DNA of 64,000 nucleotides from Alphaproteobacteria bacterium (GTDB lineage: Bacteria > Pseudomonadota > Alphaproteobacteria > UBA6615), in NCBI GenBank assembly GCA_028279245.1, contig JANQOE010000033.1, positions 1-64,000 on the forward strand, read 5' to 3'. Shown in pieces: positions 4,468-10,287 of the stretch. Made by a program: the position numbers and the translations under genes. The notes under the pieces are model-generated. The model saw nothing but the letters and a program-made list of their open reading frames with translations. It was not told the origin of the DNA and did no database searches. Numbering within the stretch: position 1 is the stretch's first letter; every line of letters starts with the position of its first letter.

Positions 4468-5007
4468 GTGGCGACCCGGTCTTACCCGCGGCTCTTCCGG
4501 CACCGCAAGGCTTGCGTCATGGGCGCCGTGTTGGTGCCACTGCTCGCCGCCTGCAGCGGGACAGGTCCCGCGATCACCTTTGACCGGCGCACCGATTTTA
4601 GCAGTCTCAATTCATACAGTTGGATGGTTACCGGCGCCCTGCAAGATCTGGACAACGCCGGGATCGCCGAGGTGCGGACCCGGGTCGAGCGGGAACTGGC
4701 CGCGAAGGGCTTTCAGCCGGTCGCCGGTGGGGCCGATTTCATTGTCAGCCTCAGCATCAGCCAGTTGGCCTATGTGCGACCGATTGCACCCCGCTATGCG
4801 GCGCGGCCGAGCACCGCGTTCCGGGATTCGCCGCTAGAGGGGACCCAGGAGGCCGTTATCACGGTGGCGGTCAGCATGGCGGATGGAACGACCAGGCGGG
4901 CCCTCTGGCGCGGTTCCCTCAGCCGGGCGCTGGGGCCCGCGGCGCCGGCAGAGGTGGCGGCCGGGATGGTCCCCGGAATCCTGGCGTTTTTCCCGCCGGA
5001 AACCTAA
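4468..5007 (+). CDS. DUF4136 family lipoprotein
   Basis: A 179-residue predicted outer-membrane or periplasmic lipoprotein. A basic n-region and hydrophobic stretch end in lipobox LLAA-C at about residue 27. The mature part begins ITFDRRTDFSSLNSYSW, typical of DUF4136 (extracytoplasmic, unknown function), and carries a predicted beta/alpha domain with VERELAAKGF. The start is ambiguous: GTG 4468 gives a better charged signal peptide; ATG 4519 leaves only 10 residues before the lipobox Cys. It is monocistronic. Confidence 0.8.
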   Translation: MATRSYPRLFRHRKACVMGAVLVPLLAACSGTGPAITFDRRTDFSSLNSYSWMVTGALQDLDNAGIAEVRTRVERELAAKGFQPVAGGADFIVSLSISQLAYVRPIAPRYAARPSTAFRDSPLEGTQEAVITVAVSMADGTTRRALWRGSLSRALGPAAPAEVAAGMVPGILAFFPPET

Positions 5008-5104
5008 GAAAGACACGGCCTGAGGGCCTCAGAAATCCTGCCGTTCCAAGGGTTCTATTAACCCTCTTCGTCCATAGTAAACCGTCCAACTGGAGGGTGT
5101 TTGG

Positions 5105-5992
5105 ATGCAAGGGAATGGTGCCGTCCGCCGCGATGTCGCGGGGCCGGAATTGGAGCGGGTGTCCGAGGCTATTCGTTCCTCCGAGCAGGAGCTCGACGTT
5201 CTTCGGAGCGAGATCGACAGCGTCGCCAAGGTGGCGCAACAGATCGAGGCGATCGCCAAGCAGACCAACCTGCTGGCCCTGAACGCCACGATCGAAGCGG
5301 CGCGCGCCGGTGATGCTGGGAAGGGGTTTGCCGTGGTCGCCGGTGAGGTAAAGGCGCTTGCCGGACAGACTAGCAAGGCGACGACAGAAATTGCCGAAAC
5401 ACTAAGAAACCTAGGCAACCAGGCCGAACGGATGGGCGAGCATGCCAAGACGGCGATCAGCGCCGTCGAAGCGGCCCAAGCCGTGCAATCTGAGGAGCCA
5501 ATCGAAGAGACGCCGGTGGAAACGGTTGAGGCTGCCCCGGCGGCGCCGGAAGAGACCGAGCAGTATCAGCCGGCGGTTTTGGGCTTCGACGACCAGCGCC
5601 GCTACGTGCAGGATACGTTTGCGCAGGTTGAGCCGATCGCCGAGACCGCCGCTGAGTTGTTCTACAATCGGCTGTTCGAGATCGATCCGAAGCTGCAATC
5701 CCTGTTCAAGGGCGACATGAAAGAACAAGGCAAGAAGCTCATGTCGACTCTGAAGATCGCGGTCAAAGGATTGGATGATCTTGAGAAACTCATCCCGGTC
5801 GTGCAGGAACTTGGACGCCGGCATGCGGATTATGGCGTCACCGACCGCGACTACGACACGGTCGCGGAGGCATTGCTGTGGACACTCAGCCAGGGGCTCA
5901 AGGACAGCTTCACCCCCGAGGTCGAGCAGTCGTGGGCGGCGGTGTACACGGTCCTTGCCGATACGATGAAGGCCGCCGCAGCGGCGGCCTAG
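5105..5992 (+). CDS. Fusion of MCP signalling hairpin with C-terminal globin
   Basis: A 295-residue soluble protein. Residues 15-125 form a methyl-accepting chemotaxis protein cytoplasmic hairpin with the highly conserved tip ([20 protein letters not shown], about 51-70), which contacts CheA/CheW. Residues 126-158 are an acidic Pro/Glu/Ala linker. Residues 160-290 form a globin with CD1 Phe201, probable E7 Gln208 and proximal F8 His240 (in [10 protein letters not shown]). There is no transmembrane segment, HAMP or full methylation helix. The order is the reverse of canonical globin-coupled sensors, which have globin first. A GGAGG site precedes the ATG. A hybrid kinase follows 13 bp later. 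Heme-based oxygen, NO or redox sensing is the likely role. Confidence 0.9.
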
Positions 5993-6005
5993 TGGTGTTC
6001 CGGAT

Positions 6006-8336
6006 ATGGTCGGCATAGGTACCACTCACCTTGTCATTCTCCTAGCGCTCGTCGGCGCGGGCACACTCTTGGTCCTGCTCCGACGCCGGCTGGCCGACCA
6101 AATCCTGCTTTGGTACACGCAACACGGACATTTCTTCTCGCGCCCGATGCTCACTGTCGGTTGCGTGGGCCTCGCGCTTTCGCTGGCGTCACTCCTCATC
6201 GTTGCGCACCAAACAGAGATCGCGGCCTGGCGGGACTTTGAGCCTCGGGCCCAGCAGATGGCACGGCTTGTGGAGAGCCGGCTGGATGGACATATCCACG
6301 CCGTTGAAGGGGTTGCGGCGCTATTCGCTGCGCGCCCCACGGTCACTCGAACCGAGTTCGAAACTTTCGCAAAAAAGCTCCTGGAGTCGGACGCTGGTCT
6401 GGTGGCGTTGGGATACATACCGAGGATCAGCGGTGAGCAGAGAGCGGATTTCGAGGCAGCCGCCTCCGCTGACCGTGGGACCGACGTCTACATCAAGGAA
6501 ATTGGTCCCGATCGTTCCTTGATACGCCGTGCGATCGAGGATGCCTACTTCCCGGTCCTCTATCTGGAGCCCCTGTTAAGCCGCGGTGGTCTGCTGGGCT
6601 TCGACTTCGGTTCCAACCCAACGCGACGCGATGCGCTTGTTAGGGCCCGCGACACCGGCGGTGTCGCGGTTAGCAGCGGCGTCCGTCTGCTCGATAGCAA
6701 TGCCGTCTTGCTGGTTGCACCCGTCTACGAGAGTCCCGAGGCACCGTCGACGGTGGAGGCCCGACGAGCCGCCTTGTCCGGGTTCACTGTTACCGCAACC
6801 CGATTGGGCAATCTTCTCGGCGGCGGTGACACATCGATTCAACTCGCCATCCTAAACCGGTCTGGTCAAACGGTTTTCAGCACGGACCGTGCGCTCTCCC
6901 CGGCGATCGACCACCACTATGAACACCAGTTTGCGGTTGGCGATCAGACTTGGGTGCTCAACATCGAGCCCGAAGCTCAGGTTGCCGGACTCATGGAACC
7001 GCAGCCGTGGCTGATTGCTGCTGCCGTGCTCAGCCTCGCCCTCCTTCTCGCCTACTATATGGGGAGCCAGCGGCAACGAGAACGCCAGGTCGAGCGATTG
7101 GTCGTCGAGCGGACAATGAAATATGCTCGGGCAAACAGCGCGCTGGAAGAAGAGATGGCGGAGCGCCAGCGGATGCAAGAGCATCTCGTGCAGTCGCAGA
7201 AGATGGAAGCGATCGGCCAGTTGACGGGCGGTATCGCGCACGACTTCAACAACCTACTGATGATCGTCGATGGCTATGCCCGCCGGGCGGAGAAAGCTGT
7301 CGGCCAGAGCAGCAAGGCTCACGATGCACTGCTCCAAGTGATCGCAGCGGCCGAGAAGGCAGCGAAGCTCACGAAACAGCTCCTCGTCTTCAGCCGGCGT
7401 CAGGCGATGGAGAAGCGTGTCTTTAGGGTCAGTGAAGCGCTGCGGGAAGCAGAGTCGTTATTGGAGCGCTCGGTCGGCAAGGACTGCCAGTTGAAGATGG
7501 AGTTCGGGGACGAGTCACTTTGCGTGCATTCGGACGCCGGCGAGCTTACACAAGCCGTGTTGCATCTTGCCGGAAATGCAGGCGATGCAATGCAGAGGGG
7601 CGATGTCACCATCAGGACCAGATCCGTGGTGCTGACGGACGAGGATGTCCGCGACATCGACGGTATCGAGCCGGGTGACTTCGTCGAGATATCGGTGACC
7701 GATACCGGCTCCGGAATCAGCGAAGAAGACCGACTCCATATCTTCGAACCGTTCTACACGACGAAAGACCAGGGCAAGGGCACCGGTCTTGGGCTCGCCA
7801 TGGTTCTTGGCTTCGCCCAACAGTCCGGCGGCACGGTCTTGGTCGAGACATCCGCCAATGAAGGCACGACAATGCGGGTCTTGCTGCCGCAGGCGGCGGG
7901 CGGTGCCCAGGAGGCCGCTGCGACGGTTGGCGACGAGTGCCGCGGGCGCGGGGAGACGGTGCTTGTCGTCGAGGATGATGAGGCGCTGCTGGCCCTGAAT
8001 AGCGAGACACTCCGCGAACTGGGATACAAGGTCCTCACCGCCGAAGACGGTTTCTGTGCGCTTGAAGTCGAAGAAGAATGCGAGGGCGAGATCGACCTGC
8101 TGCTCAGCGATGTGGTGATGCCGCAAATGGGCGGGTTCGAGCTTTGCGAGATTATTCGGGAGAAGCGTCCCGGCCTGCCGACAGTGTTTGTCTCAGGCTA
8201 TCCCAACCGGGACTCGGCGAAGGGCACCAAGATGCCGGAGAACTGCCAGTTCCTACAGAAGCCAGTGACGCCGGGGCATTTGGCGAAGGCGATCCGTACC
8301 GAGTTGGATTCGCCTCGTGCTAATGCACCTGCGTAG
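6006..8336 (+). CDS. CHASE-domain hybrid sensor histidine kinase with receiver
   Basis: A 776-residue membrane kinase. It has N-terminal helices (about 7-25 and 46-66), a periplasmic CHASE-like domain (about 70-330), a helix (about 337-356), a coiled coil, HisKA with phospho-acceptor His412 in GGIAHDFNNLL, an HATPase domain (N-box Asn in HLAGNAGDAM, DTGSGI, GKGTGLGLAM) and a C-terminal receiver with acceptor Asp702 (LLLSDVVMP) and acidic pair VVEDDE. CHASE domains bind small extracellular ligands. It is probably co-transcribed with the MCP-globin gene. Its stop overlaps the convergent downstream gene by 17 bp. The output partner is not obvious; the receiver may hand off to a phosphotransfer protein. 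Confidence 0.92.
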   Translation: MVGIGTTHLVILLALVGAGTLLVLLRRRLADQILLWYTQHGHFFSRPMLTVGCVGLALSLASLLIVAHQTEIAAWRDFEPRAQQMARLVESRLDGHIHAVEGVAALFAARPTVTRTEFETFAKKLLESDAGLVALGYIPRISGEQRADFEAAASADRGTDVYIKEIGPDRSLIRRAIEDAYFPVLYLEPLLSRGGLLGFDFGSNPTRRDALVRARDTGGVAVSSGVRLLDSNAVLLVAPVYESPEAPSTVEARRAALSGFTVTATRLGNLLGGGDTSIQLAILNRSGQTVFSTDRALSPAIDHHYEHQFAVGDQTWVLNIEPEAQVAGLMEPQPWLIAAAVLSLALLLAYYMGSQRQRERQVERLVVERTMKYARANSALEEEMAERQRMQEHLVQSQKMEAIGQLTGGIAHDFNNLLMIVDGYARRAEKAVGQSSKAHDALLQVIAAAEKAAKLTKQLLVFSRRQAMEKRVFRVSEALREAESLLERSVGKDCQLKMEFGDESLCVHSDAGELTQAVLHLAGNAGDAMQRGDVTIRTRSVVLTDEDVRDIDGIEPGDFVEISVTDTGSGISEEDRLHIFEPFYTTKDQGKGTGLGLAMVLGFAQQSGGTVLVETSANEGTTMRVLLPQAAGGAQEAAATVGDECRGRGETVLVVEDDEALLALNSETLRELGYKVLTAEDGFCALEVEEECEGEIDLLLSDVVMPQMGGFELCEIIREKRPGLPTVFVSGYPNRDSAKGTKMPENCQFLQKPVTPGHLAKAIRTELDSPRANAPA

Positions 8337-9387
8337 GATCCTCCTGATCTTCCTCGAAGAACTTGCGCCGCAGCACGTCGAGCCGCGGCATCGCACTCAA
8401 ACCCGGTAGCATATCGCGCCTGACAAAGTCGGTGCGCGCCGCGAGGCTGCTGGTATCGGGTTCCGGAAACTCGTCCTTCCACGCCTGCATCTTGACGGTG
8501 GCGGCGCACAGTCCCCCACCCAAGCCCTTGTAGCAGTCGCGGACGCGGAGCTTCATTTTGTCGAAAGCCGGCGCGGACAGGTCCCTCCACATCTCGTTGC
8601 TCTTTGTCTCAAAGTAGGAAAACAGTGCGTTGGCATTCTCCTGGAGGCCGCGGATCAGCTTCTCGATTGAGATGCAAGCTTTCACCAGATCGTTATCCGC
8701 GCCGTACTTCATCTCCCTAAGGTCCGCCAGGGCGGCCAGAAAGCTATCAAGGTCCGGCTCGACCTGCTCAAAGCCATATTCGTAGAAGGCCAGAGCGCTC
8801 GTCATATCTCCATAATCACCGACAAATACCGGCATCTCTCGAAGCTCGATTTGCAGTGCGTGTGCCAGCCAAATCAGATTTGCCTTCGCCTTCTCTGCCC
8901 TGTCATCGGCAAATACATCGGCCAGTGTCTCGGGCTGGGCGGCGTCCGCATCCGCTTCGCCATAGATGCGGTCCATCATGGGACGGGTGTAGCGCCGCAC
9001 ATGTTTTGCCACCCGCCTTCGGCATTCGGGCGAAACGCGAAGCATTTTCGCATCGACGGTCTTGATGCCGAGTTCCTGTAATGAGACGCGTAAACTGTAG
9101 ACGTCGTAGCTCGGCAGGCTGCACAAGCGCTTGATGATCATCATGTCGGCGTCCTGCCCGCCGCTCATGTCCATGACGTTCGGCAGTTCGCTGGGCGGGA
9201 TCTGCCCGCTGCCGGTCTGGCTGCCGGAGAAGAGCTCGATCACGCCTTGCAGTTGGGCGTTTTTGACGATGCGGGCGCGCCGTAGCGCCGGTGTTTCCAG
9301 TTGGATCATTGCCAACGGAAGTATGTGCGGCGCGTCGGTCTCCGTGTCAGAGGTGGTTGTTGCTTCGGCCCGTGTCTCGGTCGACAC
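8320..9387 (-). CDS. Conserved hypothetical protein, helical, unknown function
   Basis: A 355-residue cytoplasmic protein, predicted mostly alpha-helical (LRRARIVKNAQLQGVIELF; SFLAALADLREMKYG; ACISIEKLIRGLQENANALF). It has no signal peptide, membrane segment or recognised catalytic motif. I do not recognise the family. The GTG at 9387 is the likely start, because the frame upstream to 9549 has poor protein character; a Met 25 residues further in is an alternative. Its placement between a hybrid kinase and a response-regulator gene suggests a signalling accessory, but this is positional inference only. Confidence 0.7.
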   Translation of the reverse strand: MSTETRAEATTTSDTETDAPHILPLAMIQLETPALRRARIVKNAQLQGVIELFSGSQTGSGQIPPSELPNVMDMSGGQDADMMIIKRLCSLPSYDVYSLRVSLQELGIKTVDAKMLRVSPECRRRVAKHVRRYTRPMMDRIYGEADADAAQPETLADVFADDRAEKAKANLIWLAHALQIELREMPVFVGDYGDMTSALAFYEYGFEQVEPDLDSFLAALADLREMKYGADNDLVKACISIEKLIRGLQENANALFSYFETKSNEMWRDLSAPAFDKMKLRVRDCYKGLGGGLCAATVKMQAWKDEFPEPDTSSLAARTDFVRRDMLPGLSAMPRLDVLRRKFFEEDQEDPTQVH

Positions 9388-9603
9388 CCTTATACCATTC
9401 CTTTCGTGTAGTCCTTTCGGGTATACGCACAAGCCTGTTATTTGTCTCTCTATAATTGCATCGCCCTTGGGGCCGGCTGAGTGCGGCAAAAAAGGGACTC
9501 TGCTAACTGTGCGAACATCCGAGAAATGACACGCGTTTAGCCCGGGCAATCATGGTGTCCTTTGGCAGGACGTTGTGTTTGCAAAATGAAAACAGGGGGC
9601 CGC

Positions 9604-10287
9604 GTGGCGTCAGCTAGAGCCACCGTCGTTGTCGCGTCGTTTGCCTTGCGCCGTGATGCCCTTGCAGCTCTCCTGGAGAATGCCGGGTTCGAGGTGATTG
9701 CCCGCACACCGGACCCGCGCTCCGCACTGCTTGAGGTCGACCAGAAAGGGCTTGCGCCCCGGCTGCTGCTGGCCGACCTCCGCACCTGGACGTCCCAAGA
9801 TGTCGAAGCGCTCGAGCAGCTTCGCGGGAAGCACCGGGACGCAAGGATTGTGGTGCTGGCCGACCGCCTGAAACCACTGATAACGCAACAACTGTTGACG
9901 TCCGGTGTCGAAGGGTTCCTGACCCCTGACATTCGGGAGGCGGCCCTGCTCCGCTACCTTGAACTGATCTTGCTGGGCGAGCGTCTGTACCATCCGGACA
10001 TCCGCGCGCCAGGGCCGCAGCAGGAAGCGTTTCCATTTGCGAAGGATCACGCCGGCGGCACGACGCGCCTGTCGGGGCGCGAGCGCGAGGTATTGCAGCT
10101 CCTCGCCGGTGGACTTTCCAACAAACACATCGCCCGCAAGCTGGAAATCTCCGACGGCACGGTAAAGGTCTACGTACGGAACCTCTGCCGGAAGCTTGGC
10201 CAACGGAACAGGACGCAACTGGCAACTTGGGCGGTGGTGAACGATGCGCGGACCGGTTGGACGGATAGCGGCGAGTCGGCGGCCTAG
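9604..10287 (+). CDS. NarL/LuxR-type regulator with degenerate receiver
   Basis: A 227-residue DNA-binding regulator. The C-terminal LuxR HTH is complete (TRLSGREREVLQLLAGGLSNKHIARKL, then SDGTVKVYVRNLCRKLG). The N-terminal ~120 residues follow the receiver pattern, but the acidic pair after beta-1 is missing (VVVASFALRRD instead of the usual DDH). The phospho-acceptor loop reads LLLADLRTWTSQD, so an Asp remains without a normal pocket. Phosphorylation-independent action is plausible. The start GTG 9604 has AGGGGG upstream; ATG 9586 is the alternative. Confidence 0.85.
   Translation: MASARATVVVASFALRRDALAALLENAGFEVIARTPDPRSALLEVDQKGLAPRLLLADLRTWTSQDVEALEQLRGKHRDARIVVLADRLKPLITQQLLTSGVEGFLTPDIREAALLRYLELILLGERLYHPDIRAPGPQQEAFPFAKDHAGGTTRLSGREREVLQLLAGGLSNKHIARKLEISDGTVKVYVRNLCRKLGQRNRTQLATWAVVNDARTGWTDSGESAA

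Follow-up and report, generated by a model that had tools for sequence, protein, structure and literature searches.

A truncated chemoreceptor hairpin joined to an F-family globin in an alphaproteobacterial draft genome

Here, we report a gene that joins a minimal, naturally occurring chemoreceptor tip to an F-family globin in one 295-amino-acid (aa) protein of an alphaproteobacterium. Since its relatives carry both parts in either order, the protein appears to belong to a small and hardly known family of plug-in gas sensors (or haemoglobin tethers) and not to be a back-to-front globin sensor. We rate at about even the chance that it works in the cytosol as a haem sensor or tether that does not adapt and that docks onto chemoreceptor complexes through its receptor tip. 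A receptor tip of this kind, joined to a haemoglobin in both orders and lacking membrane, HAMP and methylation parts, makes two questions testable, namely, what minimal receptor can join an array and govern CheA, and whether sensing requires rigid coupling or works through tethering. Chemoreceptor-type sensing also gains a second 3-on-3 globin family besides the S-family sensors.

Methods

The window (the whole 64,000-nucleotide stretch analysed) belongs to a draft genome (4.34 Mb, 137 contigs, 93% complete) with five MCPsignal proteins and, the fusion aside, one globin, which is plain and single-domain. The receptor tip was compared with Escherichia coli Tsr (L181) by ungapped alignment. The protein was modelled as a single chain with AlphaFold2 (17-row alignment A5; mean pLDDT, 88; pTM, 0.52). 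Relatives were collected by a named-genome scan, from a 385-genome sample of the class, and by a separate search of the window's own family.

Results and Discussion

The gene (Table 1) is a single uninterrupted frame with a good ribosome-binding site. Pfam matches to MCPsignal (aa 23 to 125; 87.1 bits, cut-off 34.6; 1.6e-24) and Globin (PF00042; aa 186 to 288; 68.8 bits, cut-off 22; 7.4e-19) are both far above chance, which confirms a preliminary description, made from the sequence alone, of a methyl-accepting chemotaxis protein (MCP) hairpin followed by a globin in one reading frame. That description was also correct in finding no membrane segment anywhere in the 295 aa (highest 19-residue hydropathy, 1.02) and an acidic, Pro-rich linker (nine D/E, no K/R, and five P). 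A frame error or chimeric assembly was ruled out, as the architecture is unbroken in seven genomes. Where measurable, selection is purifying (dN/dS, 0.04 to 0.14). AlphaFold2 predicted two helices of 61 residues each, a low-confidence linker, and then the globin helices; in this model, the individual folds are predicted with confidence and the mutual placement of the domains is uncertain.

Table 1. Positions in the window of the fusion gene, its parts, and the genes downstream
Feature	Position	Strand	Evidence
Shine-Dalgarno-like GGAGGG, 7 nt 5' of ATG	5092..5097	+	Sequence read directly
Whole gene, mini-MCP hairpin, linker, F-family globin, 295 aa	5105..5992	+	ORF list, translation, Pfam
Hairpin N-terminal arm, aa 7-67, one helix	5123..5305	+	AlphaFold2 model m4fe93fe1cc6a, MCPsignal match
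Receptor tip, aa 52-83, D70 = Tsr E391	5258..5353	+	Ungapped Tsr comparison, family alignment
Hairpin C-terminal arm, aa 69-129, one helix	5309..5491	+	AlphaFold2 model
Acidic Pro-containing linker, aa 130-160, predicted disordered (pLDDT ~50-66)	5492..5584	+	AlphaFold2, composition
F-family globin, aa 161-294	5585..5986	+	Pfam; HGbI 3s1i by sequence and fold
Tyr187, position B10 (HGbI Tyr29)	5663..5665	+	Gapless alignment to 3s1i
Phe201, position CD1	5705..5707	+	3s1i alignment, family alignment
Gln208, position E7 (HGbI Gln50)	5726..5728	+	3s1i alignment, family alignment
His240, proximal F8 histidine	5822..5824	+	3s1i alignment, family alignment
CHASE-HisKA-HATPase-REC hybrid kinase, 776 aa, 13 nt gap	6006..8336	+	Pfam
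LuxR-type protein with degenerate REC domain	9562..10287	+	Pfam

The hairpin retains the conserved signalling tip of an MCP, by Pfam score and residue by residue: Tsr N376, L378, L380, N381, A382, E385, A387, R388, F396, V398, V399, and E402 are identical, and I377, V384, E391, and R404 are conservatively substituted. The tip was earlier called an intact CheA/CheW-contacting one, and the Tsr contacts are indeed identical at nearly all compared positions. Lys52 occupies the position of Tsr F373, which we take to be a trimer contact. Across nine mini-hairpins, 32 positions are invariant in the family alignment. Residues 35 to 110 match truncated receptor chains of 85 to 90 aa in the Protein Data Bank (3ur1 and 4jpb), engineered fragments reportedly crystallised in complexes with CheA and CheW. 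Together with Thermotoga Tm14 (3g67), a soluble hairpin that likewise has no sensor domain, these are the best solved relatives of the hairpin; the 3g67 chain has 213 aa, whereas the short form in the window is natural and globin-fused.

The flanks of the tip do not extend to a methylation region. Relative to E391, the methylation sites of Tsr lie at −94, −87, −80, +102, and +111, whereas the hairpin has 69 residues before D70 and its modelled second helix ends at about +59. The methylation consensus, found four times in Tsr as a positive control, has no match in the window's protein. The preliminary description had called the methylation helices short, which is right for the arms and understates the rest, as the methylation region is missing altogether. 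With about 8 to 9 paired heptads (about 6 to 7 in the core shared by mini-hairpins), the hairpin falls below the coiled coils of 12 to 32 paired heptads of published receptor classes (PMC6628036), and it is a truncated module without methylation helices.

The nearest solved structures to the globin by sequence are Hell's Gate globin I (HGbI, 3s1i; 3.3e-25) and then the HGbRL globin, and the modelled globin superposes on HGbI with a TM score of 0.92 (1.1 Å; 37% identity in the fold alignment). Because PF00042 matches, Pfam Protoglobin has no match in the protein, and HGbI and HGbRL are nearest, the globin is F-family and not S-family. It has the 3-on-3 fold with Tyr B10, Phe CD1, Gln E7, and His F8, none of which varies among the six aligned hairpin-globin proteins; the CD1 Phe and proximal His proposed earlier are upheld by the gapless 3s1i alignment and by this invariance. 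For the HGbI residues aligned with Tyr B10 and Gln E7, the HGbRL paper (PMC4476040) describes a conserved distal pair in a globin of very high affinity. From these residues, we infer binding of haem and of O2 (or NO/CO).

The protein was first described as a reversed globin-coupled sensor. The order, MCP and then globin, stands; the globin is of another family, and the order is labile in relatives. A reversed S-family sensor was ruled out by the globin family. Globin-coupled sensors with MCP output (HemAT and Atu1027) also combine a globin with an MCP signalling domain in a soluble protein and an expected O2 sensor, but they have an N-terminal S-family protoglobin (Pfam Protoglobin), with the output C-terminal, and a full-length, adapting MCP. 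HGbI-type single-domain F globins and HGbRL share the globin family and the distal pair but have no receptor hairpin; HGbRL (Methylacidiphilum globin-Roadblock/LC7) places its globin first and carries a Roadblock domain. Four alphaproteobacterial proteins (L015, L016, L021, and L035) also hold an F-family globin and an MCP in one chain, with the globin first, PAS repeats (or Cache-HAMP), and a full-length ordinary MCP, unlike the window's protein. These four (L015 at 4937 to 8087) combine the canonical globin-first order with a non-canonical globin family, and the PAS repeats are in tandem; in the globin tree, the L015 and L016 globins lie near the window's with weak support. An O2-binding domain follows the MCP in DcrH, as the putative one does here, but DcrH sits in the membrane and has HAMP and a complete MCP signalling domain.

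In the literature, a 2026 review treats globin receptors as N-terminal-globin proteins (PMC13401364), and in 8,075 genomes surveyed with Pfam, the partners of MCPsignal include Protoglobin, and a rare receptor combines PAS with Bac_globin (PMC6194562). Our literature search, which covered few subscription papers, turned up no account of a PF00042 globin and an MCP in this order, which is not proof that the architecture is undescribed.

The protein is not a unique oddity, which the relatives across the class sample rule out. Hairpin-globin proteins were found in 6 of the 385 class genomes (the window's genome, G135, G206, G090, G067, and G109), with two tandem globins in that of G206, and globin-hairpin proteins in three (G216, G308, and G138; that of G308 is cut near a contig end). 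The named-genome scan gave one same-order orthologue (L008, of genome G763, a Rhodospirillaceae metagenome assembly), cut by the contig end. Within the window's own family, G022 has the globin-hairpin form, and G010 and G002 have the hairpin alone. Domain order is therefore labile, as G022, G216, G308, and G138 place the same mini-hairpin after the globin. The first residues of the G010 protein resemble, by eye, a remnant of globin helix A, and its neighbours (a TauD-like dioxygenase and YifB/ComM) match those of G022, so that the loci are syntenic and the globin was probably lost in G010. In G138, the fused gene adjoins a standalone globin gene, and the two globins are 82% identical. Outside the class, none of the matches fetched from a 398-genome phylum sample had a hairpin within about 1.5 kb, and plasmid collections held no match covering 80% of the window's protein.

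A mini-hairpin profile search recovered stand-alone proteins, mostly of 111 to 134 aa, in many other families of the class; these (L216, L220, L213 to L215, and others) are scattered and have no conserved neighbour. Those of G292 and G197 are 100% identical as proteins at a dS of 0.30. Next of kin are longer cytosolic receptors (473 to 563 aa). The nearest full-length kin, of about 480 to 540 aa (L223, 1884 to 3341; L224, 2119 to 3636; and L225, 1411 to 3021), share a C-terminal domain with the motif DRNGYLPTHN...RRIFDDRVGL...RGRHWGG. In the hairpin tree, mini-hairpins form one group (support, 100/100) that has the Skermanella receptor L150 inside it and all other sampled full-length receptors outside; a strictly monophyletic group that leaves L150 out is not rejected (p, 0.21). 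Support is 96/79 for a group of globin-first and hairpin-only forms and 93/70 for one of hairpin-first forms. A single clade of fused globins is not rejected by the AU test (p, 0.175), and the fused-globin trees appear compatible with one fusion that was later swapped or with two.

The window's genome has a complete chemotaxis cluster (CheA, CheW, CheY, CheB, and CheR on contig C66), flagellar genes nearby, and flagellins. For the docked sensor or tether that we prefer, the protein would consist of two loosely joined modules, a globin that takes haem and O2 (or NO/CO) and a mini-hairpin whose receptor tip would dock it onto receptor dimers or trimers with CheA and CheW in the array. Having no methylation sites, the fusion could not adapt and would be a constant-gain accessory input; alternatively, it may work by tethering an O2/NO-binding globin to the array. 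The preliminary description suggested a cytosolic haem sensor in a chemoreceptor array; there is good support for a haem protein in the cytosol that bears a receptor-type tip, and the docking and the direction of signal are what we infer. Against docking stand the location of the fusion gene outside the che cluster, the Lys at the F373 position, and six bearers without a CheW-family domain.

CheW-family domains occur in 17 of the 23 genomes that bear a fusion or mini-hairpin, and none was found at an E value of ≤0.001 in G135, G067, G010, G002, G022, and G763. These six keep one to four MCPsignal proteins, mini-hairpin included; G022 has the mini-hairpin alone. Flagellar rod proteins are absent from G135 and G763. 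Since several of the CheW-less bearers are fragmented metagenome assemblies, their lack of CheA/CheW is not certain; the strongest case is G135 (98% complete, 20 contigs). Unless these assemblies are incomplete, docking on CheA/CheW is excluded there as the function. The alternative of a non-chemotaxis signalling protein, already raised in the preliminary description, therefore stands for some lineages, in which such a function may apply. Minimal hairpins (about 110 to 130 aa, alone or F-globin-fused in either order) might then be plug-in adaptors, with the tip recruited in CheA/CheW-less lineages to an O2- or NO-responsive partner unconnected with chemotaxis, which we regard as possible but doubtful. 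Should the form in genomes without CheA/CheW be functional, then receptor tips also work with partners that are not part of chemotaxis. Three further MCPs of G135 (L242, L243, and L244) have no evident kinase neighbour; that of L243 lies near a lone CheY-like protein (6386 to 6829).

H-NOX and NosP proteins act on adjacent kinases, and the fusion could likewise be a haem sensor for a neighbouring kinase, acting in trans on the CHASE hybrid kinase with the hairpin as a dimerisation or docking helix pair. The kinase gene, a possible partner, follows on the same strand after 13 nt, and the LuxR-type protein is a possible output partner of the kinase. The gene after the fusion encodes a HisKA sensor in G090 (a few nt 3'), a PAS sensor protein in G067, and a REC protein in G216, and such a role would fit genomes without CheA/CheW. 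The downstream genes, however, are not orthologous, and no such gene follows the fusion in G135, G206, or L008: G135 has a protoglobin gene there, and the other two have nothing related (in L008, an oppositely oriented transporter). Moreover, no receptor-tip binding site is known in non-CheA kinases, and the CHASE kinase scores far below the cut-off of the NosP-linked model. That signalling genes lie next to the fusion is suggestive, but this neighbourhood is not conserved, and we consider action on the kinase unlikely. Between the kinase and LuxR-type genes lies a 409-aa protein without a Pfam match (8320 to 9549, minus strand), and the protoglobin gene immediately 3' of the G135 fusion (L175, 6473 to 6967) encodes a single-domain S-family protein.

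A little less probable still is an allosteric reversed chemoreceptor, a mirror of HemAT, in which a ligand-driven change in the globin dimer would run as a rigid movement into the hairpin's C-terminal arm and switch CheA. The tip and arms are intact, and receptors with C-terminal sensor domains are known (DcrH hemerythrin and Azospirillum Tlp1 PilZ; PMC13401364), but the linker is disordered over about 30 residues and variable among relatives, and both domain orders and a tandem-globin version exist. Because domain order is free, the long disordered linkers vary, and even two globins occur, the domains are probably tethered and not rigidly coupled, and rigid helix-to-helix signalling is unlikely; in the docked sensor or tether, haem state would act more probably through proximity or oligomerisation. 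Improbable, and the weakest of the readings, is that the fusion is accidental evolutionary debris and its globin simply an O2/NO-handling haemoglobin, for although Che-less bearers exist and G010 and its relative G002 lack the globin, the tip residues do not vary between distant families, the G010/G002 mini-hairpin pair has a dN/dS of about 0.14, and the fusion recurs in many families.

F-family globins were also seen in other multidomain proteins. Four cyanobacterial proteins (L047, 2738 to 5405; L048, 2642 to 5405; L051; and L052) have Cache- and cyclase-like regions and a C-terminal F-family globin, and two Aquimarina genes (L030 and L031) each encode two such globins in tandem.
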